DNA from: Acidobacteria bacterium Mor1
GTDB lineage: Bacteria; Acidobacteriota; Polarisedimenticolia; Polarisedimenticolales; Polarisedimenticolaceae
DNA: 64,000 nucleotides
Assembly: GCA_001664505.1 (NCBI GenBank)
Contig: CP011806.1
Coordinates: 2,391,138 to 2,455,137, forward strand
Direction of reading: 5' to 3'
The translations under genes and the position numbers were made by a program. The notes under the pieces were generated by a model. It saw only the letters and a program-made list of their open reading frames with translations, was not told the origin of the DNA and did not search any database. This document shows, one piece after another, positions 20,336 to 63,114 of this stretch (positions within the stretch are counted from its first letter, which is position 1; the number at the start of each line of letters is the position of its first letter).

Positions 20336-21676
20336 ATGAGCATGCAGACACTCATCACGATCCTCTGGGCCGCCGTCTTGCTGGCCGGGCCCGTCTCGGC
20401 GGGCACCTGGCTCGAGGAACAGATCGCAAGCGACGGCGAGATCGACCGCTACTACCGGGCCTACGTTCCCGACGATTCCAGCCCGGGCATGCCTGTGGTG
20501 CTGTTGCTCCACGGCGGCGGCGGCGACTACATCTCTCTGACGGCCAACGGCCCCGAGGTGGAGTGGATCGAGCTTGCCGATCAGCAGCGCTTCCTCCTGA
20601 TCGTGCCCAACGGCTACAGCATCGCGACCGGCCAGGCCGACGGCGAGGACCAATCCTGGAATGACTGCCGGGGGGATGTCACGGCGGGCCTGTCGGAACA
20701 AGACGACATCTTTTTCTTCAACGAGTTGCTCGACTGGGCCATCGCGACCTACCAGATCGACACCCAGCGGGTGTACGTCACCGGAGCTTCCAACGGCGGC
20801 ATGATGAGTTTCCGCGCCGCCTTCGAGATGGGTGACCGGGTCGCCGCCATCGCCGCCTTCATCGCCAACCTGCCTGCTCGGGACGAGTGCGCAACCCCGG
20901 TCGACATCACGCCGACGGCGATCATCAACGGTGACGCCGAAGAGCTGTACATGCCCTGGGACGGCGGCTGCATCTTCAACGCGGACTGTTCCAGAGGGCT
21001 GGTGATCTCCGCCGAGGCATCCCGGGACTGGTGGCTGGCCCACAACCGGATCGATGACCCGGATCCGGTGGTGACCGAATTCCTCGACATCATCCCCGGC
21101 GACAACTCGACCGTGGTCCGCACCCTGTACGAGGGCGGCCTTCAGGGCAGTACCGTGGCGTTCTACCGGGTCCGCAACGGCGGCCACAACAATCCCTCGA
21201 TTCAACACCCCTACAACGCGCTGCTGCTGCTGGTCGCCGGGCTCGGCATCCAGAACCGGGACATCGAGAGCGCCCGGCAGGCCTGGAACTTCCTCTCCGA
21301 CCACACGCTGGACGGCCCGCCGCCGGCATCGGCGAACCCCGGAGGCTCGGCGTACCTGCGGGTCGGCAAGGAGGCCGGCGGCAATCTGGCCCTGGACTGG
21401 ACCTCCGACTGCGGCGCCGGCAACCGTTACGGCGTCTATCGCGGCGACCTGGCTCTCGGCTACAGCTCCGCGGCCCCGATTCCCGGCCTCTGCGATCTCT
21501 CCTCGACCAACGCCTCGATCTCCCCGTCGAGCGGCGCGGCGGAGTTCTACCTGGTCGTGCCCAACACCGGCGTGAACGAGGGAGACTACGGCAGCGCCTC
21601 GGCCGGCAAACGGACGCCGGCAGGTTCGGCCTGCTATCCCCAGAATCAACTGGACAGCTGCGCTTCCGGCCTCTGA
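20336..21676 (+). CDS. Exported LpqC/PHB-depolymerase-like esterase with C-terminal module
   Basis: This 446-residue exported alpha/beta hydrolase resembles LpqC, poly(3-hydroxybutyrate) depolymerase and feruloyl esterase-type enzymes. The signal peptide ends near VSAGTW. The oxyanion region is VVLLLHGGGGDY, the nucleophile is Ser152 in TGASNGGMMS, and a His in NGGHNNPS (residue ~283) is the likely triad His. Residues ~335-446 are a separate beta-rich module (YGVYRGDLALGY ... EFYLVVPNTGVNEGDYGSAS) that recurs at the C-terminus of four other exported proteins in this window; here it ends in CASGL instead of CP. The gene is preceded by the terminator of the previous operon. The substrate is not known. 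Confidence 0.82.
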   Translation: MSMQTLITILWAAVLLAGPVSAGTWLEEQIASDGEIDRYYRAYVPDDSSPGMPVVLLLHGGGGDYISLTANGPEVEWIELADQQRFLLIVPNGYSIATGQADGEDQSWNDCRGDVTAGLSEQDDIFFFNELLDWAIATYQIDTQRVYVTGASNGGMMSFRAAFEMGDRVAAIAAFIANLPARDECATPVDITPTAIINGDAEELYMPWDGGCIFNADCSRGLVISAEASRDWWLAHNRIDDPDPVVTEFLDIIPGDNSTVVRTLYEGGLQGSTVAFYRVRNGGHNNPSIQHPYNALLLLVAGLGIQNRDIESARQAWNFLSDHTLDGPPPASANPGGSAYLRVGKEAGGNLALDWTSDCGAGNRYGVYRGDLALGYSSAAPIPGLCDLSSTNASISPSSGAAEFYLVVPNTGVNEGDYGSASAGKRTPAGSACYPQNQLDSCASGL

Positions 21677-24800: not shown

Positions 24801-25506
24801 GACCATCGAACACCTCTACGACACTGTCGCCGGACAGGACGGCGGCAAGGTGGTGATCGACGCCGACGAGGACGACCTCAATAACTACGAAACCCTCGAG
24901 CCCGAAGGAGGCTACCCCGGCTCCACGCTGGGCACCTTCCAGTGCAACGCCATCGAAGGCGAGGCTGCGTTCCAGGGCTCGTCGGGCGGCTGGGTCACCA
25001 GCACCTTCGACCTGTCGGACTACGTGGGCAAGCGGGTCTACCTGGCCTTCGTCTTCGGCTCCGACCGTCAGGCTGCGGCCGGCGAGGGCTGGTGGATCGA
25101 TCAGGTCAACGTGACCTACCAGGTTCAGGGCGCCCCGATCTGCGACACCGTTCAGTGGCCCGGCAGCGTGCCGGCAACGGTGAGTTTCCGGCGGCTGGCC
25201 GGCGGCGACATCGAAGCCAGCTGGGCCGGCTCGTGCAATGCCGGGGCCCTGCCCGGACAGAGCTACTCGGTCCAGGCCGGCGACCTGTCCCTGCTGCACT
25301 CGTCGGGGACCTACTCCCACGCTCCGGTAGGCGGCGATTGCGCCCGCACCTCACCGGCGGTGTGGAGCCCCGGCTCGGGCAGCGAGTACTACCTGGTGGT
25401 GCCGACCGAGGCGACCCGTGAAGGAGGCGCCGGGCTGGCCACCAGCGGCCAGCGGCCCCAGGTCGACGGCACCTGCGGCGTCCAGCGGATCGCGACCTGC
25501 CCGTAA
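21823..25506 (+). CDS. Exported Asp-box (BNR/sortilin-like) propeller protein with C-terminal module
   Basis: This 1227-residue exported protein has a signal peptide (CLIATLILLVAAGLATAVAQ) and a charged linker, then a long propeller from about residue 105 to 765. At least ten Asp-box-like repeats are visible, for example STNDGLSWTN, SGDGGLTWEA, SNDGGLTWTK, TTDGGASWTQ, KSLDGGANWTD and SMDGGVTFSP. These are typical of VPS10/sortilin-like and xyloglucanase-like propellers; no sialidase catalytic set was recognised. A CARDB-like beta domain follows (PGETWGVRPILRNAGGQTATG), then a MAM/jelly-roll-like segment (YLAFVFGSDRQAA ... WWIDQVNV). The last ~110 residues are the shared module ending QRIATCP. 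It is a likely surface or secreted protein that binds polymer or protein. Transcription ends at a perfect GC hairpin. Confidence 0.8.
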   Translation: MSRRSQVCLIATLILLVAAGLATAVAQQDDPPREPVSRIVDRSLGEEEQILKRQEWFFSTRRAGTESGEEMAELWRSGVDVTRDALRRQRFRRSAGIESEVNFWVPMGPAPSNFGGWAFGTVSGRISSLAADWAGGTLYAGSASGGLWKSTNDGLSWTNLFDDGAGTQTVGTVEVDPNDANVIWAGTGENVTGCEGYFGVGLLRSGDGGLTWEARNGSGASTLEDLSSFANIVIDPRDSDHLITGGRMRGCSSGSEQNGALYTSNDGGLTWTKRLDNMQVYEIVQDPLVLDTYWAATNTGVYKSVDNGVTWLVQTASGLPNGNTGRTELAVSPSDSNVVYALFSSGGNTFWRTTDGGASWTQMASGSNACDGQCWYNSVLRVHRTDPDIVYRGNVHVFKSLDGGANWTDLSNNWGSSQKVHQDTHEFLMDPNDPETFYVGCDGGVWKSEDGGANFLNRNGDMNVTQFYAIGVDANNTDVICGGAQDNSSLVRTSGNVWDLQAVTGDGFVCHVNPQDPNYSYITSYPSGGYPNVLRSTSGVLGGYGGITGSGSGIQSGDRSNWVTPYLLDPQNPSTLYIGTHRVYRSDDHGDSWDQVGPTDLTAGSSSLLSLAINRNFPEVLLSGSVSGRVWRTVNGGFAWEDITSGLPGRSINDVASDPADPDRAFAVVGGFNTNHVWEWNAGSGWTARGNDLPNVPVNSVLMLGSNDILVGTDTGVFRSMDGGVTFSPFMNGLPQGTVVTDLKLNIPESLVTAGTYGRGAWQVSIDPVEPMLLYDSIELPLTELDGDGDGSVEPGETWGVRPILRNAGGQTATGVTARLVSPTAGINMLDTAAQSFGDIAGGGTAPSQNVFSFSVHPAFSCGDVIRFDLLDVSSSNAPASYPDRIEAFTVTVVGEYDTPIPATLLDENFDGSTGDWTHEAVGAGVFPCGGIPYIDEWGLGTKDAGRGPSYHCGNGAGGSYSTFNHSWLYYGGKDSQNGPGIDIPADAFGATLTIEHLYDTVAGQDGGKVVIDADEDDLNNYETLEPEGGYPGSTLGTFQCNAIEGEAAFQGSSGGWVTSTFDLSDYVGKRVYLAFVFGSDRQAAAGEGWWIDQVNVTYQVQGAPICDTVQWPGSVPATVSFRRLAGGDIEASWAGSCNAGALPGQSYSVQAGDLSLLHSSGTYSHAPVGGDCARTSPAVWSPGSGSEYYLVVPTEATREGGAGLATSGQRPQVDGTCGVQRIATCP

Positions 25507-25645: not shown

Positions 25646-28600
25646 ATGTTTCGTGCAACTTCGATCCTCCGACCGACTCTGTATCTGCTTGTCACGGCGG
25701 CGCTTATGGCGCCGGCCGTCGCAGCCGGGCCCGCCGGGCCGACCGCCTTCGACCGTTGGGTCGACGACCTTTGGGCCCTGGAAGAGGTCTACTGGCAGAA
25801 CCGTATCTGGCCCAAGGCCAACCCCGGACCGAAGCCTGAGCTTTCCCAGGTGCTGGATCGCAGCGCCGTGAAAGCCCGGGCCCTCGACACCCTCACGGCA
25901 CTGGGCGAACTGGAGGCCGCCCATGGCTTCCGGATCGACGGCCACCGGCTACAGATCGAACTGGATCGCCTGGCGGCGGACACCCGGGCACCCAGGACCC
26001 TCGAACAACTCTTCGCCGCTCTCGACCATGATCCGGAGCGGCTGTCTCGCACTCTGGCGCTGACTGCCTACGTCCAGCGCCTGCGGGACCAACTGGACGC
26101 GGCGAATGGGGCCGGCCTGGGGCTCGCACCCCGGCCCGACAACCCGACCGAGCACCCGATCCTGAGCGACGGACTGAATGTCACACTGCCCCCGGTCACC
26201 GGCGAAGACGGAACCGTCGGCTTCAGCTCCGGATCCGGATGCACCGACGACACCTGGGCCTCGCTCACCGTCGAGCCCAGCCCCCGCGGGCTGCACAGCG
26301 CCGTCTGGACCGGCAGCGAGATGATCGTCTGGGGCGGCGGGAACGGAAACGAGCTGTACGACAACGGTGGCCGCTACGACCCGGCAACCGACACCTGGAC
26401 TCCGGTGACCCTTACCGGCGCCCCCGATGGGCGCGAGCGCCACACCGCGGTTTGGACCGGCACCGAGATGATCGTCTGGGGCGGCGGCATCTTCGAGGGG
26501 CTGGACACCGGCGGTCGCTACAACCCGTCGACCGACAGCTGGGCCGCGACGACCACCAGCGGAGCGCCCGACGGACGCACCGGCCATGTCGCGGTCTGGT
26601 CCGGTAGCGAGATGATCGTCTGGGGTGGGGAAGACTTCCCCGAGGCCGGTGGCCGGTACGACCCATCGACGGATAGCTGGACGCTGATGCCGCCGTTTGC
26701 CGGACCGGACGTCCGCCCTCATGCCGTCGCGGTCTGGACCGGCGGCCAGATGCTGATCATGGGTGGCGGGATCGAAGATGGTACCGATCTGTTCGACATC
26801 TACAACGACATCTGGCGCTACACGCCCGGATCGAACAGTTGGAGTTCCTCCGCATCCTTGCCCGGACCGCGCCGCACCCGGCACGCGGGGGTCTGGACCG
26901 GTAGCGAATTGCTTGTCTGGGGTGGCCAGGGACTGGAGTGGGACCCCGAGAACGAGGAGTACCTGACCATCGAACTCGACGATGGGTGGCGCTTCAACCC
27001 CGGCACGGGAAGCTGGTCCGCGATGGGAACCAACGGAATCGTCCCTCTGCCGCGCTACCTCCACACCGCCGTCTGGACCGGCTCGGAGATGATCATCTAC
27101 GGGGGATCCGGCGGGTTCGATGCCTCCGCCTACAACCCCTCGAGCAACTTCTGGAGTTTCGTGCCGAGCAACGGCCAGGGCAGCGAACTGACCGAACACA
27201 CGGCTGTCTGGACCGGCTCGGAGATGATCACCTGGGGTGGCCAGACCTCGAGCGCCGGGTTGATGTCCCGAGGCTCGCGCTTCGATCCGGGACCCGACAG
27301 CTGGACGCCGACCTTCTCGTCGAACCCTCCGCAGCCCCGTGAGGAACACGTCGCGGTCTGGACCGGTAGCGAGATGATCGTCCACGGCGGCCGCGGCCCC
27401 GAGGAACTCATCACCTACCGCTACGATCCCGCGCTCAACATCTGGAACCAGGCCGCGCCGTCGGGCCTGACCCAGCGGCTGCGGCTCCACACTGCCGTGT
27501 GGTCGGGTAGCGAGATGATCGTCTGGGGTGGATTGATGGGCTTCTCCACCGAGATGGACGACGGCGGGCGCTACAACCCGACCAGCGATAGCTGGAGCCC
27601 CGCCGACCAGACCGGCGCACCGGCGCCGCGCTACCGGCACCTGGCCGGCTGGACCGGCACCGAAATGCTTGTCTACGACGGCCACCTCGCCGACAACAAC
27701 GGCGGACTCTACGACCCGGTCGCCGACTCCTGGCGCTCGATGACCACCCTCAACGCGCCCCCTTCAAGCCAGACCGCCACCGGTGTCGCCGCCGATGGGG
27801 AGTTCATCGTCTGGGGTGGAAGCAGCACCAATATCGGCGCTCGCTACGACTGGACCGCCGACACCTGGACCCCGACGACGACCACCGGAGCCCCGGCGGA
27901 ACGTTCTAACCACACCGCTGTCTGGACCGGCAGCGAGATGTTGGTCTGGGGCGGCGCCAGCGCAGCCTCGCCCAACGGCCTCGACGATGGAGGTCGCTAC
28001 GATCCGGCTACCGACAGCTGGACTCCGATGTCGATCAGCGGCCCTCCGGCCGCCCGCTTCGGGCACATCGCCGTATGGAGCGGCAACGAGATGCTGGTCT
28101 GGGGTGGCTCGATCAACAGCAACTACCCCGACGACGGCGGCCGCTACGATCCGGCCACCGATAGCTGGCAGATCATGTCGCTGGAACAGGCCCCCATCGG
28201 CCGCGAAGAGCACACCGGTGTCTGGAGCGGCAGCGAACTGATCGTCTTCGGCGGCTTCCGCCTCAATCGTCCGCCGATCGGCGGACGCTACTGCTCAGCC
28301 GCGAGTTGCACCGCCACCGACTGGTTCCGGGATGCGGACGACGACGGCTTCGGCGACTCCGGCGATGTGGTCTCCGCCTGTACGGCGCCGGCCGGCTACG
28401 TCGGCACCAGCGGCGACTGCGACGACGGCGACGGCGATGCGTGGGCTACGCCGTCGGAGACCCTCGACCTGCTGCTGAGTCACGATCAGGTCGGCGGTGT
28501 GACGTCCCTCAGCTGGAGTGCACCGGCAGACCCGGGCGCGAGCATCCTGACCTATGACGTGCTGCGTTCGTCCGACGCCGGCGACTTCAACGGCGCCGGC

Positions 28601-28771
28601 GTCTGCTTCGAATCGGGAGACAGCGACCTGGTCGCTACCGATGCGTCGGATCCGGCCGGCGGCGCGGTGTTCTTCTATCTCTCCCGCGCCACCAACACCT
28701 GCCCACAAGGAGACGGAGACCTGGGAACCGACAGCCAATCCGCACCCCGTAGCGGAGCGGCCTGCCCGTAG
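25646..28771 (+). CDS. Exported Kelch-like repeat protein with metal-binding motif and C-terminal module
   Basis: This 1041-residue exported protein starts at ATG 25646, chosen because it begins the signal peptide (MFRATSILRPTLYLLVTAALMAPAVAAG); a longer frame would run through the preceding hairpin. After a helical region (residues ~30-170) come about fourteen Kelch-like units built on HTAVWTGSEMIVWGG and RYDPATDSWTPM, enough for two propellers. Near residue 890 is a MopE-like acidic motif, DADDDGFGDSGD ... GDCDDGDGD, expected to bind calcium or other metal. The last ~100 residues are the shared module (FFYLSRATNTCPQGDGD ... GAACP). No enzyme motif is seen. It is third in a tandem row of exported proteins that share that C-terminus. 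A role in surface binding is inferred. Confidence 0.8.
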   Translation: MFRATSILRPTLYLLVTAALMAPAVAAGPAGPTAFDRWVDDLWALEEVYWQNRIWPKANPGPKPELSQVLDRSAVKARALDTLTALGELEAAHGFRIDGHRLQIELDRLAADTRAPRTLEQLFAALDHDPERLSRTLALTAYVQRLRDQLDAANGAGLGLAPRPDNPTEHPILSDGLNVTLPPVTGEDGTVGFSSGSGCTDDTWASLTVEPSPRGLHSAVWTGSEMIVWGGGNGNELYDNGGRYDPATDTWTPVTLTGAPDGRERHTAVWTGTEMIVWGGGIFEGLDTGGRYNPSTDSWAATTTSGAPDGRTGHVAVWSGSEMIVWGGEDFPEAGGRYDPSTDSWTLMPPFAGPDVRPHAVAVWTGGQMLIMGGGIEDGTDLFDIYNDIWRYTPGSNSWSSSASLPGPRRTRHAGVWTGSELLVWGGQGLEWDPENEEYLTIELDDGWRFNPGTGSWSAMGTNGIVPLPRYLHTAVWTGSEMIIYGGSGGFDASAYNPSSNFWSFVPSNGQGSELTEHTAVWTGSEMITWGGQTSSAGLMSRGSRFDPGPDSWTPTFSSNPPQPREEHVAVWTGSEMIVHGGRGPEELITYRYDPALNIWNQAAPSGLTQRLRLHTAVWSGSEMIVWGGLMGFSTEMDDGGRYNPTSDSWSPADQTGAPAPRYRHLAGWTGTEMLVYDGHLADNNGGLYDPVADSWRSMTTLNAPPSSQTATGVAADGEFIVWGGSSTNIGARYDWTADTWTPTTTTGAPAERSNHTAVWTGSEMLVWGGASAASPNGLDDGGRYDPATDSWTPMSISGPPAARFGHIAVWSGNEMLVWGGSINSNYPDDGGRYDPATDSWQIMSLEQAPIGREEHTGVWSGSELIVFGGFRLNRPPIGGRYCSAASCTATDWFRDADDDGFGDSGDVVSACTAPAGYVGTSGDCDDGDGDAWATPSETLDLLLSHDQVGGVTSLSWSAPADPGASILTYDVLRSSDAGDFNGAGVCFESGDSDLVATDASDPAGGAVFFYLSRATNTCPQGDGDLGTDSQSAPRSGAACP
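26280..28262 (+). repeat. About 14 in-frame Kelch-like repeats
   Basis: The unit contains GTCTGGACCGGCAGCGAGAT in near-identical copies every ~130-170 bases, encoding VWTGSEM(I/L)(V/I)WGG. The first copies are the most uniform at the DNA level, which points to recent duplication or conversion. One copy (about 27650-27690) reads HLAGWTGTEMLVYDGH and one (about 27780) is degenerate (GVAADGEFIVWGG). Confidence 0.8.
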
Positions 28772-47408: not shown

Positions 47409-47954
47409 ATGCCCCAGGACCCTCCCCGCACGCCCTCCGAGAAAAGCCTCGATTTCGAGGCCATTCGCGGAGAAGTCGTGCGCGCCGTGCGGGCCCACTG
47501 CCCGCCCTCGATGGTGCCCCAGGCCGATGACCTGGCCCAGGAGGTGCTGGTCCGGCTGCTGGAAAGACAGAAAAAGGGTGAAGTCCCCGAGGTCCGGCAT
47601 GCGTCTTACTGGCGTAGGGCTGCCTACAACGCACTGATCGACGAGCTGCGCCGGCGCCGACGCCGGCGAGAGGAGCTGTTCGATGATCAGCCTCCGGGCG
47701 GGGACATCCCCGCCACGCCATCTCAGGATCCCGATCGCCGGGCGGAGAGCGTTGAGCTCGCCGAGGCGATCGAGGACTGCCTTTCCCGGCTCACCTCCGG
47801 GCGCCGCGTCGCGGTGTTCCTGCATCTCCAGGGCCACACCACCGCTGAGGTGGCCAAGATCCTCGACTGGGCGATCAAGCGTGTGGGGAGCGCGCTGTTT
47901 CGCGGGATGCGCGATCTACGCGCCTGTCTCGCGTCGAAGGGGTGGACCGCATGA
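47409..47954 (+). CDS. ECF-type RNA polymerase sigma factor (module B)
   Basis: This 181-residue sigma factor has region 2 (VPQADDLAQEVLVRLLERQ ... SYWRRAAYNALIDELRRRRRRREEL) and region 4 (EDCLSRLTSGRRVAVFLHLQ, TAEVAKILDWAIKRVGSALFRGM). It is shorter than the module A sigma factor and clearly distinct in sequence. A GATAAT hexamer ends 6 bases before the ATG, so the transcript may be leaderless, though CGAGGG could act as a weak ribosome site. The ATG of the anti-sigma gene overlaps its stop. It presumably drives its own operon and an unknown regulon. Confidence 0.85.
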   Translation: MPQDPPRTPSEKSLDFEAIRGEVVRAVRAHCPPSMVPQADDLAQEVLVRLLERQKKGEVPEVRHASYWRRAAYNALIDELRRRRRRREELFDDQPPGGDIPATPSQDPDRRAESVELAEAIEDCLSRLTSGRRVAVFLHLQGHTTAEVAKILDWAIKRVGSALFRGMRDLRACLASKGWTA

Positions 47955-48598
47955 GTCTCGATGACCGCAGCCTGCGGGAGGCTTGGCGTGCCCGCGAGCC
48001 CGGCCCCGGCGCGAGTTGCCCCGACTCCGACTCGGTCTGGCAGGCGGCGAGCGGCGAACTCCCTCCGGCAGAGGCCGCCCGCATCGCGGAACATGCCTCC
48101 GCCTGCGCCGCCTGCGCCGAGGCGTGGCGGCTGGCCCGGGCGATGCACGGCCCGGTCGCAGCCGACGAGGCCAGCGCGGGCGTCGCTGCCGAACCGGGCT
48201 TCCCGTGGCGGCCGCTGCTGGCAGTCGCGGCCCTGCTGCTGTTGACCTTCGCCGGTTGGAGCCTGCTGCGGCAGAGCGAACCGGGCCCCGCTCCGGTGCT
48301 GCGCGAGACGGTCGTAGAGATTCGATCCTCACTCGGTGACGACACCCCCCTGCCCCGGGGCGCCTTCGTCCTGCGCTGGGAGGGCACGCCGGAAGGGAGT
48401 ATCTACGCCGTTGAGGTGGGCACACCGGACCTACGCAGTCTCGACCGGGCCGCGGGCCTGGTCGATGCCGAATACCGGGTACCGGTGGAACGACTCGAGT
48501 CGGTCGAGGCGGGCGGCAGCGTTGCCTGGCGGGTCGAGGCGACCCTCCCCGACGGCCGGCAGATCACCTCGGTGACCTTCATCAACCGGGTGGAGTGA
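47951..48598 (+). CDS. Zinc-type membrane anti-sigma factor (module B)
   Basis: This 215-residue anti-sigma factor starts at ATG 47951, overlapping the sigma stop. It has a cytoplasmic ZAS motif HASACAACAEAW (HxxxCxxC) near residue 55, one membrane helix (PLLAVAALLLLTFAGWSLL, near residue 95) and an exported domain of ~100 residues (PRGAFVLRWEGTPEGSIYAVEV ... SVAWRVEATLPDGRQIT) that is FN3-like. The ZAS motif marks it as the binder of the adjacent sigma factor. It overlaps the CHAT gene start by GTGA. The exported domain probably senses or is cut by something outside the membrane. Confidence 0.85.
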   Translation: MSLDDRSLREAWRAREPGPGASCPDSDSVWQAASGELPPAEAARIAEHASACAACAEAWRLARAMHGPVAADEASAGVAAEPGFPWRPLLAVAALLLLTFAGWSLLRQSEPGPAPVLRETVVEIRSSLGDDTPLPRGAFVLRWEGTPEGSIYAVEVGTPDLRSLDRAAGLVDAEYRVPVERLESVEAGGSVAWRVEATLPDGRQITSVTFINRVE

Positions 48599-51441
48599 GG
48601 GTGCGGGCCCTGGGCGGCATCGTGGCGGCTCTGGGTTTCCTGTGGGGACTCGCGACCCATGCCACGGCGGCGCCGCGGAACGAAGCTACCGGCGCGGCCG
48701 AAGCTGCGCAGTCGTGCAGTCAGCCACCGTCGCTGTTTCCGGCGAGCCCCTTCGACTGCGAGTGTTTCCGGGTCACCGAGATCGATCGCAGCAACCCGAA
48801 CCGCGCCGCCCTCGAAGGAGCACGCGCCGAACGCCCGGACGATGACTGGCTGCTTGCCGCCCATGCGGCCTACCACACCGAACGCCCCGGACCGAGCGGC
48901 CTGGAACTGGGCAGCGAAGCGCTGCAGCGTTTCGTCGCGGCCGGCGACGCCCGGGGCGAAGCCTACGTCCGAACCCTGCTGGCGCGGATCCACCAGCGCT
49001 TCCGCCGTAGCGATGCCTCCAACCGGGAGATCGCCGCTCTCGACACCTTGCTCGACTCGGTAAACGATCCGGTGGTCCACGCCCGCTACGCCCTGGCCCG
49101 GGTCCGCGCCGCCGAGGAGGCGGGCGAATTCGATCGCGCCTACCTGACCGCCCGCCGCGCGACGGTGTCCGGCACCTTCGCCGGACTCCCTCCGTCGACC
49201 CGTTCGGCGCTGTACGGTTCCGCGGCGAGCATGGCGTTGCGGCTCAATCGATTCTCCGAGGCGCTGGCGCTCAACCGGCGGCAGGAGGAAGCCTGCCGCG
49301 ACCTGCCCGGTTGCGAAACGCGCACCCGGCGCTTCCGGGCGATGATCGCCCGGGGCATGGCAACTCATGGACTCGCCTCGAAGGAACAGGCGGCGAACCT
49401 GACTCTGGCTGCCTATGAGGACGCGCGGAAGGCAGGGAGCCGCTGGTCGGAACTGCTGCAGGTTTGCGAGGCCGGGCACTGGCTCGAACCACCCGAAAGC
49501 CTGGACTACTTCGACCGCTGCGCGAACCTCGCTGACGAACTGAAGTGCGAGGACATCAAGCTGGTCGCCGAGATGATGCACACCGTCGGCCACGGGCGGC
49601 TCGATCCTGCGCGGCTACCAGAGGCCATCGACCGCATGAAGCAGATCGCCGTCGAGATGCGCGAACTCGGCAGCGGCGGCGATCAGATCGCGGCCTACGG
49701 CTTTCTGGCCCAGCTTTACCAGCACGCCGGCGATGAGGACGCCGCCGTCGAGGCGCTCTCCCGGGCGATCTACCTGTCCGAGCTGGATCAGGACCGCCAG
49801 TGGGACGCGGGCAGCCGGATCGGCACCCTCGGCGCCGACGCCAATCACTTCCATCGCCTGGCCCGGCTGTTGCTCGAAAAGCAGGGCTCGGACGACGCCG
49901 ATCTTGAACGGGCCTATCAGGTAGTGGAGCGCTTTCGACGCCGGGCAGTGATGGTCGAGCGGGCGCGGGCGGACGGCGAAGGCGCCGGCGCCGGCGCGGA
50001 CCGGCCGCAGACATCACAACAGCGGACCGGATTGCGGCAGCTCCGGCGGGATATTCAGGCCATCCAGCAGCGGCTACCGGCGGCAGCTCCGACGGAGCGA
50101 GGCGAGCTGTTGCGCGAGCTCGACGCCCTGGAGCTGGACGAGCGCAGCGCCCTGCGGGAACTCGCACGGCAGGATCCCGGCCAGACCCACTTCGAGTACC
50201 CGCAGATCCCCGATCTCGAGAGCGTGCGCGCCGCCCTGGAACCGGGCGAGGCGTTGATCAGCTACCAACTCCCCCCCTCCTCCGAAGGTTCCTCCTGGGC
50301 CTGGGTGATCGATCGTGCCTCCGTGCGCACGGTGCAACTGCCGGTCGAGGGGATCGAGCGAACCCTCGGCCTCTACCTGGGATTCGTCTCCCGCCGGGAC
50401 GGCGCGGAAACGGCTGCCTCCGATGCACTATCCGCCGCGCTGATCGCGCCGGTCCTGCGGCACGTTCCGATGGGGGTCAGCCGGCTCACCGTGATTCCCG
50501 ACGGCCGGCTTCATGGTCTGCCCTTCGCCGCGCTCCCGATCGAGCCCGGCGGCCCGCCGCTGGCACTGACCTACAGCCTCTCCTTCGCCGGATCCATCGG
50601 CGAGCGTGTGCGGCAATCGGATGAAGCCCTGCTGCCCCGGGCGGTACTCGGCATCGCCGGCGCCGGACGGCCCGGCCGGCAGGACGCCATGCGCGGGGAA
50701 GCCGACCCGATCTGGCCCGAGTCGACCTGGACGCCGTTGGCCTGGGCGCAACGGGAGGTCGCCCGGGTGGTCACCCGGCTCGGCGGAGACAGCCTGCTGC
50801 TCGATGCCGACTCTCCACCGTCGGCCTGGGAAGGGCTCGACCTGCGAAGGTTCGGCGTGTTGCACCTGGCCAGCCACGCCGTGTCGAACCATGAGCACCC
50901 GCAACGCTCTGCCGTGTTGATCCCGGCGCGCTCGCCGGAGGACGACGGACTGCTGCAGCCCCGGGAGATCGCCCACCTGGACCTCGACGACACCCTGGTG
51001 GTGTTGGCCGCCTGCAGTAGCGCCGGGGGTCCCGGAGTGCGTGGCGGGGGCCCGCTGAGCCTCGCCCGCTCCTTCCTGGCCGCGGGAGCGCCGGCAGTGA
51101 TCGGAACGCTGTGGCCGGTACGCGACGACGAAGCGGCGCGCTTCTCCGAGTTGTTCTACGACCGCTTCGCCGCCGGTGAGCCGGCCCAGAAAGCGCTGAA
51201 CGAAACCCAGCAGGCGCTGCTGGGCCAGGACGTTCCCGCCGCCGACTGGGCCGCCTTCGTGTTGATCGGAGACGGTCAGGTGCGCCTGGCCGGCGAGGAT
51301 GGCGGCGAAGGCGATCGAGGCACCGAGGACAAGCGGGGCGAGGCCGCCTCGTTCGGCCGCTTTCCGCCCTGGCTTCCGGGAACGCTGATCGCAGCGGCGC
51401 TGCTGATCGCCATCTGGGGCCTGCTCCGGCGGCGCCGCTAG
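48595..51441 (+). CDS. TPR-CHAT domain protease with membrane anchor (module B)
   Basis: This 948-residue protein starts at GTG 48595, which overlaps the anti-sigma stop (GTG 48601 is an alternative). It has a signal peptide (GGIVAALGFLWGLATHATAA), TPR-like helices from about residue 70 to 480, then a CHAT domain. The dyad is intact: His761 in LHLASHAVS and Cys807 in VVLAACSSAGG, followed by SLARSFLAAGAPAVIGTLWPVRDDEAA and DWAAFVLIGDG. A C-terminal membrane helix (LPGTLIAAALLIAIWGLL) and RRRR tail orient the protease outward, with the tail in the cytoplasm. It is the module B counterpart of the lipoprotein CHAT protein at 7242-10001. Cleavage of the anti-sigma exported domain is a testable idea. 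Confidence 0.85.
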   Translation: MRVRALGGIVAALGFLWGLATHATAAPRNEATGAAEAAQSCSQPPSLFPASPFDCECFRVTEIDRSNPNRAALEGARAERPDDDWLLAAHAAYHTERPGPSGLELGSEALQRFVAAGDARGEAYVRTLLARIHQRFRRSDASNREIAALDTLLDSVNDPVVHARYALARVRAAEEAGEFDRAYLTARRATVSGTFAGLPPSTRSALYGSAASMALRLNRFSEALALNRRQEEACRDLPGCETRTRRFRAMIARGMATHGLASKEQAANLTLAAYEDARKAGSRWSELLQVCEAGHWLEPPESLDYFDRCANLADELKCEDIKLVAEMMHTVGHGRLDPARLPEAIDRMKQIAVEMRELGSGGDQIAAYGFLAQLYQHAGDEDAAVEALSRAIYLSELDQDRQWDAGSRIGTLGADANHFHRLARLLLEKQGSDDADLERAYQVVERFRRRAVMVERARADGEGAGAGADRPQTSQQRTGLRQLRRDIQAIQQRLPAAAPTERGELLRELDALELDERSALRELARQDPGQTHFEYPQIPDLESVRAALEPGEALISYQLPPSSEGSSWAWVIDRASVRTVQLPVEGIERTLGLYLGFVSRRDGAETAASDALSAALIAPVLRHVPMGVSRLTVIPDGRLHGLPFAALPIEPGGPPLALTYSLSFAGSIGERVRQSDEALLPRAVLGIAGAGRPGRQDAMRGEADPIWPESTWTPLAWAQREVARVVTRLGGDSLLLDADSPPSAWEGLDLRRFGVLHLASHAVSNHEHPQRSAVLIPARSPEDDGLLQPREIAHLDLDDTLVVLAACSSAGGPGVRGGGPLSLARSFLAAGAPAVIGTLWPVRDDEAARFSELFYDRFAAGEPAQKALNETQQALLGQDVPAADWAAFVLIGDGQVRLAGEDGGEGDRGTEDKRGEAASFGRFPPWLPGTLIAAALLIAIWGLLRRRR

Positions 51442-51559
51442 GGCGACTCCAAAAAACTTCCGGCCGAGGTGAAGACGAACCGCCGCGAGGTTCGTCAAGG
51501 CCAGCGAGGGAACGGCAAACCGATGTCCGGCTGCCGAAGCTCCCCTCCTGGAGGCCACC

Positions 51560-54460
51560 ATGGCTACCCGCCTCGCCGCAGTTCTCTGCGGTTTGCTACT
51601 CAGCACCACCCTCGCCGGAGCGCAGACGACCATTCCCGGCGGCACCATCTCCACCGACACGACCTGGGATCTCGCAGGTTCCCCCTACACCCTCACCGGC
51701 GCGGTGACGATCCAGGGAACCGACGGCCCCGACGGCATCACCACCCTGACCATCGAAGGGGGTGTCGAGGTCCGGATCAACGACTTCCACGAGCTGATCG
51801 TCGGCACCAGCGAACCGGGGGCTCTAATCGCCGACGGCGATACAGGCCCGAGCCCGGGGCCGATCCTGATCACCAGCTCCGACGCCGTGCCGGTCGGCTC
51901 GCAACATGGCGGTGTGTGGTTCCGGGGCCAGGCAGCCGCATCGGTGATGCGCAACGTGATCGTCGAGCACGGCGGCCGCGGCGGGTTCCCCGGCGGGGTC
52001 GTGTTGGCCACGACCACCGGCGAGAGCTTCATCTTCGACCGCCTGACGGTGCGCAACATCGACAACGGCAACAACGGCCTCAACCTCGACGGTGGCGTCT
52101 CGACGGTGACCCAGGCGAGCATCAGCAACGTCAACGGTTACCACCTGCGCCTGGACGGCGGCAGCGGCTCGATCTCCGACTCGTCCCTTTCCAACATCTA
52201 CCGGGATCCCTTCGGCGGCGCCGACTTCACCCTCCAGGGCAACACCTTCACCGACTGGGGCGGCACGACCTCGAACATCAGCGCGGCCATGGCAGCCCGC
52301 CTGATCCTCGACAACACGGTGACCTCCGTCGCCGGCGGAGTCACCGATGTACAGCAGGGAACCATCGCCGTCGACGGCACCTTCGGTCCGGCCGCCGGCA
52401 CCTACGTGGTCGGCGGAGACATCACGGTGCGCGGAACCAATGGGCCCGACGGGGTCACTACCCTGACCCTGCAGCCCGGGACCCGCATCGAGATGGGCAT
52501 TGCCGACAGTCTGGTGATCGGCGGCTTCAGCGGCGATCCGGGACGTCTGGAGAGCCTGGGTGGCGGCGCGCCGGTGGTGATCACCAACGATTTCGGCACG
52601 CCGAACACCTCCTGGTGGGACGACATCGAGATCGGCAATACCGGGTCGGCTGCCCTGTTCAACATGGAGATCGACTCGGCAAACACCTGCATCGACGTGC
52701 AGGGAGGCACCCTCGAGGCGGGAGACATCGACCTGGCGCGCTGCTTCACCGGAATGCGGCTCTCCAGCGCCACGACACCTTCGGTAATCGACGGCATCCG
52801 CTGCACGGCGGTTTCCGACTGCATCGCGTCGAGCAGCTCAACCCCGACGATTCGCAACAGCGACCTGATCGGCACCACCGACGGACTGAGCAACAACACG
52901 CCCTTCGACGTGGTCGACGCCATCGGTAACTGGTGGGGCTCGCCCGACGGTCCCTCGGGGGCCGGACCGGGCAGCGGTTCGGAGGTCAGTACCGGCGTGC
53001 TGTTCGACCCGTGGCTCACGGCGCCCGCCGACGACTTCGACGCGATACCCGCCGACGACGGCGACGGACAGACCGACCCCTGCACCGGCGGCAACACCGT
53101 CGACTGCGACGACAACTGCGTTCGCGTCGCGAATCCTTCCCAGGCCGACGAAGACGGCGACGGCATCGGCGACGCCTGCGAATCCCGCGCGACACTGACC
53201 GTCTCTTCGGATGCCTTCGACGCGGCGGACTTCGCAACGATTCAAGAGGCGATCGACGCCGCGCCCGACGGCGCCACGATCCGCATCCACCCGGGGCTCG
53301 GCAGCTACAACCAGGATCTGCGGCTCGATCGGGCGCTCACCCTGACCCTCGAAGGCACCTCGACCCAGCCCCCGGTGATCATCGACGATCGCTTCACCAC
53401 GACGCTGCTGATGCGGGACAGCTCGGGAGCGCCCCACGTGGTGCGCAACCTGACCTTCCGCGGTGACGGGCGCACCATCGATGCCTACGTCGACTCGATC
53501 TTCGAGAACCTGATCTTCGACGACAGCACCACCGGTGTGGGGATCGGGCTGCGTTCGGGCACCCATCAGATCAGCGACGTGCTGATGGACGGGGTCAGCA
53601 CGGGCATGGTCATCGACGACCCTGCCGTGGCCCATGTGGAGCGCACCCAGATGATCGACGGCATCCAGGGCATCCTGCTGCAGGACGGTGAGGTGAACCT
53701 CAAGAGTTCGACCATCGCCGGCAACTCCGGTCTGGGAATCCTGATCCAGGCCTTCGACTTCGATTCCGTCCTGACCATGGAGTACGTCACTCTCGCCGAG
53801 AACGGCGGCATCGGGCTGGACAACCGGCCGGCGGTACCGCTTTCGATCGAAGACTCGATCATCTTCGGCAACCTGGGCGGCGACCTGTCCCAGGTGCCCT
53901 GCACCGATCTGACCGACAGCAACGTCGGCGACCCGGCCTGCTCCGGAATCAACGGCAACATCTCGTCGGATCCCCTGCTCGACGCCGGATACCGGCTGAC
54001 CTCGGGCTCACCCTGCATCGATCTCGGTGACGACGGGGCGGCCTTCGACGGCACCCCGCAACGGGATGTCGACGGCGAAGCCCGTGTGGCCGACGGGGAC
54101 GAGGACGGAACCGCCCGGGCCGACTGCGGGGCCGACGAGTACCTCGCCGCGCCGCTGATCGCCGAGGTCACCGGCGTTCGCTGGCTCGATGACATCACTT
54201 TGGTCTGGGGCAGCCTCGCCGGAGCGGTGGAATACCACCTCTACGGTGACGACCTGTCGGCGCTCACGGTGGGTTACGCCGGCTCCTGCCTCGACAGTCT
54301 CGACGGAAACCGCACCGACACCCAGGCCACCCTCGTCGAACTACCGGCCGTCGGCGCCGGACGCTTCTATCTGGTCACCGGCGAGAACGGCGCCGGCGAC
54401 GAGTCGCGGCCGGGATCCGGCTCCGCCGTACAACGGATCAACGCGACCCCTTGCCCCTGA
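51560..54460 (+). CDS. Exported right-handed beta-helix protein with C-terminal module
   Basis: This 966-residue exported protein has a signal peptide (MATRLAAVLCGLLLSTTLAGAQ) and two related beta-rich halves: VTIQGTDGPDGITTLTIEGG near residue 50 and ITVRGTNGPDGVTTLTLQPG near residue 290, each followed by helix-like rungs. A calcium-type acidic stretch (DDNCVRVANPSQADEDGDG) of the thrombospondin-3 kind lies near residue 520. A second parallel beta-helix block (FATIQEAIDAAPDGATIRIHPG, HQISDVLMDGVSTGMVIDD and others) follows. The last ~100 residues are the shared module ending NATPCP. It follows module B by 119 bp on the same strand and is probably a target of that sigma factor or part of its operon. 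A terminator follows. Confidence 0.8.
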   Translation: MATRLAAVLCGLLLSTTLAGAQTTIPGGTISTDTTWDLAGSPYTLTGAVTIQGTDGPDGITTLTIEGGVEVRINDFHELIVGTSEPGALIADGDTGPSPGPILITSSDAVPVGSQHGGVWFRGQAAASVMRNVIVEHGGRGGFPGGVVLATTTGESFIFDRLTVRNIDNGNNGLNLDGGVSTVTQASISNVNGYHLRLDGGSGSISDSSLSNIYRDPFGGADFTLQGNTFTDWGGTTSNISAAMAARLILDNTVTSVAGGVTDVQQGTIAVDGTFGPAAGTYVVGGDITVRGTNGPDGVTTLTLQPGTRIEMGIADSLVIGGFSGDPGRLESLGGGAPVVITNDFGTPNTSWWDDIEIGNTGSAALFNMEIDSANTCIDVQGGTLEAGDIDLARCFTGMRLSSATTPSVIDGIRCTAVSDCIASSSSTPTIRNSDLIGTTDGLSNNTPFDVVDAIGNWWGSPDGPSGAGPGSGSEVSTGVLFDPWLTAPADDFDAIPADDGDGQTDPCTGGNTVDCDDNCVRVANPSQADEDGDGIGDACESRATLTVSSDAFDAADFATIQEAIDAAPDGATIRIHPGLGSYNQDLRLDRALTLTLEGTSTQPPVIIDDRFTTTLLMRDSSGAPHVVRNLTFRGDGRTIDAYVDSIFENLIFDDSTTGVGIGLRSGTHQISDVLMDGVSTGMVIDDPAVAHVERTQMIDGIQGILLQDGEVNLKSSTIAGNSGLGILIQAFDFDSVLTMEYVTLAENGGIGLDNRPAVPLSIEDSIIFGNLGGDLSQVPCTDLTDSNVGDPACSGINGNISSDPLLDAGYRLTSGSPCIDLGDDGAAFDGTPQRDVDGEARVADGDEDGTARADCGADEYLAAPLIAEVTGVRWLDDITLVWGSLAGAVEYHLYGDDLSALTVGYAGSCLDSLDGNRTDTQATLVELPAVGAGRFYLVTGENGAGDESRPGSGSAVQRINATPCP

Positions 54461-54473
54461 CGGGCTCCCGCGC

Positions 54474-54520
54474 GCGGGCGGCCCGCCCCTCCTGGGCCGC
54501 CCGCGGCGGGATTCTTTTCT
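54474..54520 (+). terminator. 11-bp hairpin followed by a T-rich stretch
   Basis: GCGGGCGGCCC (54474-54484) pairs with GGGCCGCCCGC (54494-54504); after six more G/C bases comes ATTCTTTTCT. It is 14 bases after the beta-helix stop and is the end of the module B transcription unit. Confidence 0.65.
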
Positions 54521-60676: not shown

Positions 60677-63114
60677 GACAGCTATCGGCATCGTGCGCCC
60701 TCGTCGCGGCGCTGGTTCTCGCCACGGCGACCCCTGCCCAGGTGGTCGTCGACCACTACGACTCGATGCGCTATCTGGACAACAGCTCCGACCCGGGCAT
60801 CGGACTGAGCTGGGTCCAGGGGACGTTCGACGACAGCGGCTGGAACACCGGCACATACGGGATCGGCTTCGAAACCGATACCGGTGACTCCAGGGCCGAC
60901 GTGCTGATCGAAACCACGGTGCCCAGCGGCACTCGCTCGGTCTACACCCGGGTCGAGTTCCAGATCGACGACGTGAGCGCCGTGCAGAATCTCTTCCTCG
61001 GCGCCGACTACGACGACGGCTTCGAGGCCTGGATCAACGGCGTACAGGTTTTTTGTTCGTCGCAGATGCCGACCTGCAGCCCCTCCTGGGACAGCGTGCC
61101 CGGGTCCCACGAGTCGAGCAACGCGCCGACCCCCGACGTCACCCCACTACAGGACATCTCGGCGGCAGGCATCGGCGCCCTGCAGAACGGAACCAACGTG
61201 CTGGCCATCGGGGTCTGGAACCGGTCGGGCACCTCGAGCGACCTGGTGCTCTCTCCACGCCTGATCGTCAACCGCCCATCGGTGGCGGTGACCCGCGGGC
61301 CGTACCTGCAGCAGCTGACCGACACCGGCGTGATCATACGCTGGCGCACCGCCACGGCGACCGACAGCCGCGTGCACTTCGGGCCGTTCCCCGATGAGCT
61401 CTCCCAGACCGTCGACGACCCGGCGGTCACCACCGAGCACAGCATCACGTTGACCGGCCTGAGCCCCAATACCGAGTACTGCTACTCGGTGGGCAGCACC
61501 ACCGAGGTGCTGGCCGGCGACGACCTGCAGCATTTCTTCTGGACCGGCCCCCCGGCGGGGACCCGCCAGCCGGTGCGGGTCTGGGCCATCGGCGACTCCG
61601 GGACCGCCAACGCCGACGCCGGCGAAGTACGCCGGGCTTACGAACGCTACGACGAGATCTACACCGACCTCTGGCTGATGCTGGGAGACAACGCTTACGA
61701 CGACGGCACCGACGCCGAGTATCAGGCCGCGGTGTTCGAGACCTATCCTCGGCAACTCCGTACCTCGGCGGTCTGGCCGACCCTGGGAAACCATGACTCC
61801 CGCAACTCGTTCTCCGACACGCTGTCCGGACCCTACTACGACAGCTTCGAGTTGCCGGCAGCGGCGCAGGCAGGCGGGATCGCCTCGGGAACCGAGGCCT
61901 ACTACTCCTTCGACTACGCCAACATCCACTTCATCAGCCTCAACTCCGACGACGTCGATCGCACCCCGGGCAGCGCCATGCTGACCTGGCTGGAGCAGGA
62001 CCTGGCCGACACCCTTCAGGATTGGATCATCGCCTTCTGGCACCACCCGCCCTACACCAAGGGCTCCCACGACTCCGACGACGTGGGCGACAGCGGCGGC
62101 CGGTTGTTCGACATGCGGGAGTACGTGCTGCCGCTGCTCGACGACTATGGAGTCGACCTGGTGTTGACCGGCCACAGTCACTCCTACGAGCGCTCGTTCC
62201 TGCTCGACGGCCACTACGGCATCTCCTCTACCCTGGCCCCGGCGATGGTGCTGGACGACGGCGACGGCCGGCTCAGCGGCGACGGCGCCTACGAGAAACT
62301 CTCCAGCGGCAGCGCCCCCTACGAGGGCGCGGTCTACCTGGTGGCCGGGAGCTCGGGCAAGCTCAGCGGCGGCACCTTCGACCACCCGGCCATGGCGCTC
62401 TCGCTGCAGGAACTCGGCTCGGTGGTGCTCGATGTGTTCGGAGACCGGCTGGACGCCTCCTTCCTGCGGGACGACGGAACCGTCCGCGACGTGTTCACCA
62501 TCGTCAAGAGCACCGCCACTCCGCCGGCCGCCGAATTCGAAGGAAGCCCGCTGAGCGGGGCGGCGCCGCTGACCGTCGACTTCCTCGATCTTTCTTCTAC
62601 TAACACCACCGGCTGGTCCTGGGACCTGGACGGCGATGCGATCGATGACAGCACGGACCGCGATCCGACCTTCACCTACACCCAGCCCGGCAGCTACACC
62701 GTGCGCTTGACCGCCAGCAACCAGAGCGGCGCCGGCCAGGAGCAGAAAACCGGCTACGTCTGCGTCTCCGGTAGCGATCCTGCGCGGGTGGCCCAACTCC
62801 TCTTCGGCGACTCCACCACGTTCTCCTGGTCCGCGGCCTCGCTGGCCACCGGCTACGACGTACTCAAGGGAGATCTGGGGCAGCTCCGGGCCGCCAACGG
62901 CGACTTCTCCACGGCGATCACCGAGTGCCTCGGCGACAACGATGCCTCGACCAGCGCCGCCGACCCGTCGGCGCCGGGCGCCGGCCAGTCGTTTTTCTAT
63001 CTGGTGCGGGGGGTCAGCTGCGCCGGAGAGACCGGAAGCTACGACAGCGCAGGCGCACAACAGGCGGGGCCTCGCGACGCTTCCATCGGCGGATCGCCGG
63101 CGGCCTGCCCCTGA
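60673..63114 (+). CDS. Exported purple acid phosphatase-like metallophosphoesterase with PKD and C-terminal module
   Basis: This 813-residue exported protein has a signal peptide (VAALVLATATPAQ), an N-terminal beta sandwich, an FN3-like purple-acid-phosphatase N-domain (PYLQQLTDTGVIIRWRTATATD, SPNTEYCYSVGS), then a calcineurin-type metallophosphoesterase: AIGDSGT, MLGDNAYDDG, LGNHDSRN, WHHPPYTKGSH, LTGHSHSYERS. The metal set is complete. A PKD domain follows (PLTVDFLDLS ... PGSYTVRLTAS), then the shared C-terminal module (YDVLKGDLGQL ... SFFYLVRGVSC ... GGSPAACP). It probably releases phosphate from organic phosphates outside the cell. It overlaps the TPR gene by 4 bp. Confidence 0.88.
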   Translation: MRQLSASCALVAALVLATATPAQVVVDHYDSMRYLDNSSDPGIGLSWVQGTFDDSGWNTGTYGIGFETDTGDSRADVLIETTVPSGTRSVYTRVEFQIDDVSAVQNLFLGADYDDGFEAWINGVQVFCSSQMPTCSPSWDSVPGSHESSNAPTPDVTPLQDISAAGIGALQNGTNVLAIGVWNRSGTSSDLVLSPRLIVNRPSVAVTRGPYLQQLTDTGVIIRWRTATATDSRVHFGPFPDELSQTVDDPAVTTEHSITLTGLSPNTEYCYSVGSTTEVLAGDDLQHFFWTGPPAGTRQPVRVWAIGDSGTANADAGEVRRAYERYDEIYTDLWLMLGDNAYDDGTDAEYQAAVFETYPRQLRTSAVWPTLGNHDSRNSFSDTLSGPYYDSFELPAAAQAGGIASGTEAYYSFDYANIHFISLNSDDVDRTPGSAMLTWLEQDLADTLQDWIIAFWHHPPYTKGSHDSDDVGDSGGRLFDMREYVLPLLDDYGVDLVLTGHSHSYERSFLLDGHYGISSTLAPAMVLDDGDGRLSGDGAYEKLSSGSAPYEGAVYLVAGSSGKLSGGTFDHPAMALSLQELGSVVLDVFGDRLDASFLRDDGTVRDVFTIVKSTATPPAAEFEGSPLSGAAPLTVDFLDLSSTNTTGWSWDLDGDAIDDSTDRDPTFTYTQPGSYTVRLTASNQSGAGQEQKTGYVCVSGSDPARVAQLLFGDSTTFSWSAASLATGYDVLKGDLGQLRAANGDFSTAITECLGDNDASTSAADPSAPGAGQSFFYLVRGVSCAGETGSYDSAGAQQAGPRDASIGGSPAACP

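Follow-up and report, generated by a model that had tools for sequence, protein, structure and literature searches.

A predicted Fn3-like tail domain of Acidobacteriota proteins and a beta-helix family encoded beside ECF sigma factor modules

The final ~100 residues of a 966-aa beta-helix protein encoded at 51560-54460 (+ strand) of the window (the whole stretch analysed, 64,000 nucleotides of the Acidobacteria bacterium Mor1 genome; CP011806.1, positions 2,391,138 to 2,455,137) represent a lineage-specific domain, confined mainly to one class, that is best read as a building block in general use among exported or surface proteins, found on >100 unrelated proteins per genome. The beta-helix body of the same protein places it in a small family whose genes recur beside two types of ECF sigma module.

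The tail lies in frame at the end of the ORF (…ATPCP-stop) and was matched at 54161..54457 (+) as a predicted C-terminal Fn3-like domain with two conserved cysteines and a …PCP-stop terminus (iE 5e-26, with a profile that includes the window copy among its members). That the beta-helix gene behind the second sigma/CHAT module bears the tail, as claimed in the earlier note, is borne out, since the peptides quoted there are in frame at the end of 51560-54460; of the span given there for the tail (54151-54457), the end is exact but the start is one base off frame (codon start 54152; profile start 54161). The profile also detected tails in the window at 21359-21637, 25201-25479 (a weak match, iE 0.0085), 28475-28768 and 62782-63111, five in all, an order consistent with the earlier designation of the beta-helix tail as copy 4. 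A terminal signature, AERSN(F/Y)..CP, is common to beta-helix-associated tails in L002, L004, L078, L084, L144, L146 and L147, while the window tail instead ends in AVQRINATPCP.

Searching the window's own genome (G000; 5.985 Mb, single contig) with the plain window-tail sequence gave 56 matches at E <= 10, and the similarity between tails is far beyond chance, as judged by the best non-self matches of this single sequence (1.4e-17 and 1.3e-16) together with the profile matches in the same genome. With a profile of 30 copies, at least 150 tails were identified in G000 at E <= 0.02 (319 first-look candidates). Across these 30 copies Trp is invariant and Cys46, Pro65, Tyr73, Leu74, Gly85, Gly88 and Cys101 (window-tail numbering) are near-invariant, the two Cys columns being occupied in 27/30 and 29/30 rows. 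In the phylum sample, 58/297 genomes had a tail profile match at 1e-6: 34/34 of those from the same class (own, family, order or class) versus 24/263 outside it, where half of the matching genomes (12/24) carry one or two copies only, copies per genome being counted among the best <=17 candidates.

Scans of the 30 tail members against Pfam and NCBIfam gave no family match beyond scattered single ones (best E 0.018), and 0/30 matched an Fn3 model from either collection at E <= 1. The tail profile had three matches in PDB at E <= 10, all to Fn3-like chains (3mpc, 4.3e-5; 5g56, 0.0012; 1k85, 0.021). An AlphaFold tail model built from 8 sequences (window and L078/L081) contains six strands of >=3 residues, against seven in an Fn3 sandwich, at a mean pLDDT of 61.9 (<50 for residues 86-102); Foldseek ranks Fn3 domains highest for it, with 5g56 and 3mpc at the top (best E 7.8e-3). 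As predicted from profile and model, the latter of moderate confidence, the tail is a divergent, uncatalogued Fn3-like beta-sandwich family, in which the two near-invariant cysteines probably form a disulphide (Cys-Cys staple). The family is new to Pfam and NCBIfam as searched, its associated parts (Fn3-like domain, ECF module, TPR-CHAT protease, beta-helix protein) being of known kinds, and a literature search found no report on the tail family, on an Acidobacteriota C-terminal sorting domain or on an Fn3 tail in Thermoanaerobaculia.

Tail placement was compared in 53 distinct copies, a non-random set comprising 34 from best-scoring lists and 19 picked down the list (55 rows before removal of the duplicates L162/L163 and L022/L166). 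Forty copies are C-terminal (<=30 residues from the stop), with 33/53 lying <=1 residue from it, eight are N-terminal and five internal, and most of the eight N-terminal copies sit behind a signal-like segment. N-terminal copies in G000 are those at L006, L010, L014, L015, L017, L024, L027 and L070; after the tail, one common sequence type follows in L010, L014 and L015, and a second one in L006 and L027. Among ten scanned tail proteins, two have no partner domain and eight do, most of these domains being characteristic of exported or surface proteins; those upstream of the tail include TSP_3, FG-GAP, Laminin_G, Kelch, Big, PAD and Sortilin. Given its N-terminal copies, the tail is more than a plain C-terminal signal, and its likely job would be structural, capping the protein and attaching or retaining it at the cell surface. 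With at least 150 occurrences in a single genome and presence in 34/34 sampled class members, the domain points to a general rule of surface building and would help to identify many unannotated proteins as exported.

The 966-aa window protein (51560..54460, +) starts with a hydrophobic signal-like N-terminal segment. Among beta-helix models it matches NosD only, below cut-off (E 0.029), and its relatives L123, L146, L147 and L144 match Pfam Beta_helix above cut-off; a full-length AlphaFold model from two sequences had a pLDDT of 40.3. The N-terminal beta-helix region (51560..52567, +) defines the regulator-linked family, with matches of E <= 1e-15 at 8 loci of 5 genomes. Further along, an Asp/Cys-rich, thrombospondin-type-3-like linker (53054..53182, +) corresponds to a segment also matched in records from other phyla; TSP_3 is called by Pfam in the paralogue L123 but not in the window copy. 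A relative in G181 (L144, 9419-18790) is 3123 aa long and, between its beta-helix and the tail, has DUF7619 as well as RHS repeats (PF05593, 7 stretches).

Upstream of the tail gene, Pfam searches confirmed the sigma/CHAT module named in the earlier note (module B), which consists of genes encoding ECF sigma factor B (47409..47954, +; Sigma70_r4_2 3e-9, Sigma70_r2 4.6e-7), an anti-sigma-like zf-HC2 protein with a single transmembrane segment followed by a C-terminal domain (47942..48598, +; zf-HC2 3.4e-5), its gene overlapping those of sigma B and the CHAT protein, and a TPR-CHAT protein (48595..51441, +; CHAT 2.8e-50) with a signal-like N terminus, a His757/Cys806 dyad and a C-terminal transmembrane segment plus RRRR. 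On Pfam matches above cut-off, sigma B and the zf-HC2 membrane protein are a predicted ECF/anti-sigma pair, and the TPR-CHAT protein, with a CHAT domain carrying a His-Cys dyad behind TPRs (Pfam TPR matches below cut-off only), is a predicted protease. A perfect 8-bp inverted repeat with a 7-nt loop and no T-run lies between the CHAT and beta-helix genes (51474..51496, +), and a terminator-like hairpin followed by a T-rich stretch lies behind the beta-helix gene (54497..54509, +; three such sites in the region versus 2.4 expected from shuffles). A sigma-70 consensus promoter scan gave no match in the region scanned. Elsewhere in G000, L095 (G000:C1:3352000-3368000) has two tandem TPR-CHAT genes behind one sigma/anti-sigma pair, both proteins with signal-like starts and C-terminal membrane segments.

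With the N-terminal 336 residues as query, the beta-helix family was found at 8 loci in five genomes (5/41 class genomes, and the same five among 396 phylum genomes), namely in four G000 genes (11 matches) and in four other class genomes. Seven of the eight loci lie <=4 kb from an ECF sigma gene, most directly adjacent and in varied orientations, five with sigma/anti-sigma/TPR-CHAT modules and two with ECF/kinase modules. At the seed locus the order is sigma, anti-sigma, CHAT, beta-helix and at L146 (G303) beta-helix, sigma, anti-sigma, CHAT, each in one direction, while at L123 and L148 (G251) the beta-helix gene is divergent from sigma, anti-sigma and CHAT genes; the G251 gene continues on another contig (L149), whose ORFs are those of the public contig L078 from an Acidobacteria MAG. 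At L144 (G181) the beta-helix gene is divergent from a different sigma gene plus zf-HC2 gene, and a TPR-CHAT gene is convergent on these. In the ECF/kinase arrangements, a PF07638 ECF gene is followed by a gene for a Ser/Thr kinase with TPRs and then the beta-helix gene (L114), or the beta-helix gene is followed by a PF07638 ECF gene and a kinase-like gene (L115). L147 (G227), with no module in the 18 kb read, is the exception. Gene calls in the fetched loci come from a home-made G+C-frame script, which leaves starts and some small genes uncertain. All proteins of the family end in the tail, that of G251 on its second contig. In G001, the genes of beta-helix proteins whose similarity is confined to the second half and the tail have no sigma gene beside them in the stretches read (5/5). 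The G002 relative adjoins a kinase-like gene near a contig end, and in G000 a fifth relative (L116) is encoded divergently from a kinase-like gene.

In sigma and CHAT trees of loci chosen by homology to module B, the beta-helix-linked modules are scattered and do not form one clade (4 changes, at least 3 of them forced); the CHAT tree leaves out L151, L152, L154 and L155, which have broken reading frames in the gene picks. The nearest module B relatives, at L150 and L151 of G227 (sigma 56 and 51% identical), have no family gene beside them, and no such gene adjoins the modules at L152-L155. Scattered positions in the trees, and closest relatives without the beta-helix gene, therefore indicate that the pairing was made or kept repeatedly and not inherited once with one module lineage, loss in some lineages being equally possible. 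A literature search found no report on a beta-helix/ECF pairing, nor on CHAT proteins with a sigma factor in Acidobacteriota.

The explanation favoured here, with somewhat more confidence than doubt, is that the tail is a general surface-protein module and that the beta-helix protein is the output or the input of a unit for envelope signalling, whose anti-sigma factor is probably cleaved by the membrane-anchored TPR-CHAT protease. Membrane-anchored and facing the periplasm, TPR-CHAT B would receive an envelope signal and cut the ectodomain of the zf-HC2 protein; once freed, sigma B would transcribe the operon that encodes it as well as the neighbouring beta-helix gene, giving on-demand production of a large surface protein. 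Within the same reading, the beta-helix protein may alternatively be the thing sensed. Secretion, cleavage and regulation in this circuit are predicted from gene order and sequence features. The pairing of beta-helix genes with sigma/anti-sigma/TPR-CHAT and ECF/kinase modules offers a concrete case, amenable to testing, in which the expression of a surface protein is linked to a caspase-like protease outside CRISPR.

The suggestion in the earlier note that the tail ties module B to exported tail-bearing proteins stands in that the tail is carried by a beta-helix protein with a signal-like segment, whose body is found near ECF modules at 7/8 loci, but is not supported for the tail as the link. 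Extended to the genome, it would have sigma B transcribing tail-bearing genes generally, in keeping with the tail gene directly behind module B and with tail genes as immediate neighbours in 3/12 sigma/CHAT clusters (B, L123 and L108); in view of the distribution of tails, such a regulon is barely credible. G000 has 21 CHAT genes, 74 Sigma70_r2 matches and 17 strong PF07638 ECF matches, merged into 89 sigma loci. Of its at least 150 tails, 143 were used in a rotation test (seven of 150, with E above 1e-4, were left out): 12/143 lie <=5 kb from any sigma gene, below the 20.0 expected by rotation, and 6/143 lie <=5 kb from a CHAT gene versus 4.8 expected. The 3/12 adjacency has a P of ~0.03 with the seed locus and ~0.1 without it (assuming ~5,200 genes), and among 19 stretches around all 21 CHAT genes a tail gene is directly downstream on the same strand only at module B. 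At L123 the tail gene is divergent from the sigma gene, and at L108 (G000:C1:2245000-2259000) a CHAT gene on one side and divergent sigma/anti-sigma-like genes on the other flank a subtilase gene (PF00082, 1e-35) that has a weak tail. Tails occur in 34/34 class genomes, but relatives of CHAT B at E 1e-60 in 6/41. A shared promoter motif, put forward in the earlier note as a check on sigma B control of tail genes, did not emerge above shuffles in 21 upstream stretches (13 sigma and 8 beta-helix genes), where the best exact 5-mer/4-mer pair of ECF-like type was present in 5 sequences versus 4-6 in shuffles, a comparison that is weak because several start sites were guessed, the loci again being those selected for their homology to module B. 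Both the rotation and the adjacency test led to rejection of the tail as a mark of regulation; attached to well over 100 surface proteins, it is therefore no regulatory mark in itself.

That the beta-helix gene adjoins module B by chance, the other ECF neighbours being due to the abundance of ECF genes in such genomes, is unlikely though not strikingly so. The 89 sigma loci of G000 give any gene of such size a 17% chance of lying <=4 kb from one, and both L147 and the nearest module B relatives, which lack the beta-helix gene, would fit. Against this, proximity is seen at 7/8 loci, most directly adjacent, including all four in G000 (P 6.5e-4 by random placement); leaving out the seed, 6/7 are near a sigma gene (P 1.3e-4) and 4/7 beside a sigma/CHAT cluster (P 2.8e-5), in tests conceived after seeing the data and assuming G000 gene density for all genomes. 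A different role for the tail, as a C-terminal sorting signal for a dedicated export or attachment machine, like the C-terminal domain of type IX secretion, appears distinctly unlikely. It would account for the very many copies on unrelated partners, for the 40/53 C-terminal placements, 33/53 within one residue of the stop, and for the restriction to the class, but not for the 8/53 copies at the N terminus, mostly behind a signal-like segment, and none of the 30 tail members matched a Pfam or NCBIfam sorting-domain model. A search for the type IX marker SprA_N gave no match in the genome, but none in control genomes either. A bolder reading, considered improbable, would have the tail label well over 100 proteins per genome for a protein sorting or surface-attachment system of this class that has not been described so far, and would make the beta-helix family what ECF circuits place on the surface under the control of a caspase-like TPR-CHAT protease anchored in the membrane, in analogy to the Csx29 circuit of CRISPR.

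Several known systems resemble the parts described here. The C-terminal domains of type IX secretion, which we take to be those modelled by TIGR04183 and PF18962, are small beta-sandwiches present in many copies per genome at the C termini of varied surface proteins. The tail is alike in its predicted small beta-sandwich, its high copy number and its C-terminal use on varied surface proteins, but has no sequence match to these domains and is N-terminal in some copies. Fn3 domains of bacterial extracellular enzymes (3mpc, 5g56, 1k85) are similar in profile, in predicted fold and in their setting within exported multidomain proteins, whereas the tail has no Pfam fn3 match in 30 members, carries a conserved Cys pair, is usually at the extreme C terminus and is found mainly in one class.

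For the regulatory module, the part of PMC8999054 drawn on here notes CHAT or subtilase neighbours of ECF54 sigma factors, describes this group as lacking anti-sigma factors, and also describes ECF/kinase pairs acting by phosphorylation. Module B is like ECF54 in having an ECF gene beside a CHAT gene, and L108, with its additional subtilase gene, resembles the ECF54 neighbourhood described in that part of the source. Module B differs in the zf-HC2-type gene between sigma and CHAT genes, and a beta-helix partner is unmentioned for ECF54 in the text consulted (PMC8999054); a zf-HC2 gene overlapping the sigma gene does not fit the description given there of ECF54 as without a cognate anti-sigma factor. 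A precedent for control of a sigma factor by a CHAT protein is provided by type III-E CRISPR, where, in the part of PMC10028731 used here, the TPR-CHAT protease Csx29 cleaves the inhibitor Csx30 and thereby frees the ECF-like CASP-sigma. Csx29 acts with the RNA-guided Cas7-11, whereas the CHAT protein of module B has a signal-like N terminus and a predicted membrane anchor, and its putative inhibitor substrate is a membrane protein of zf-HC2 type.
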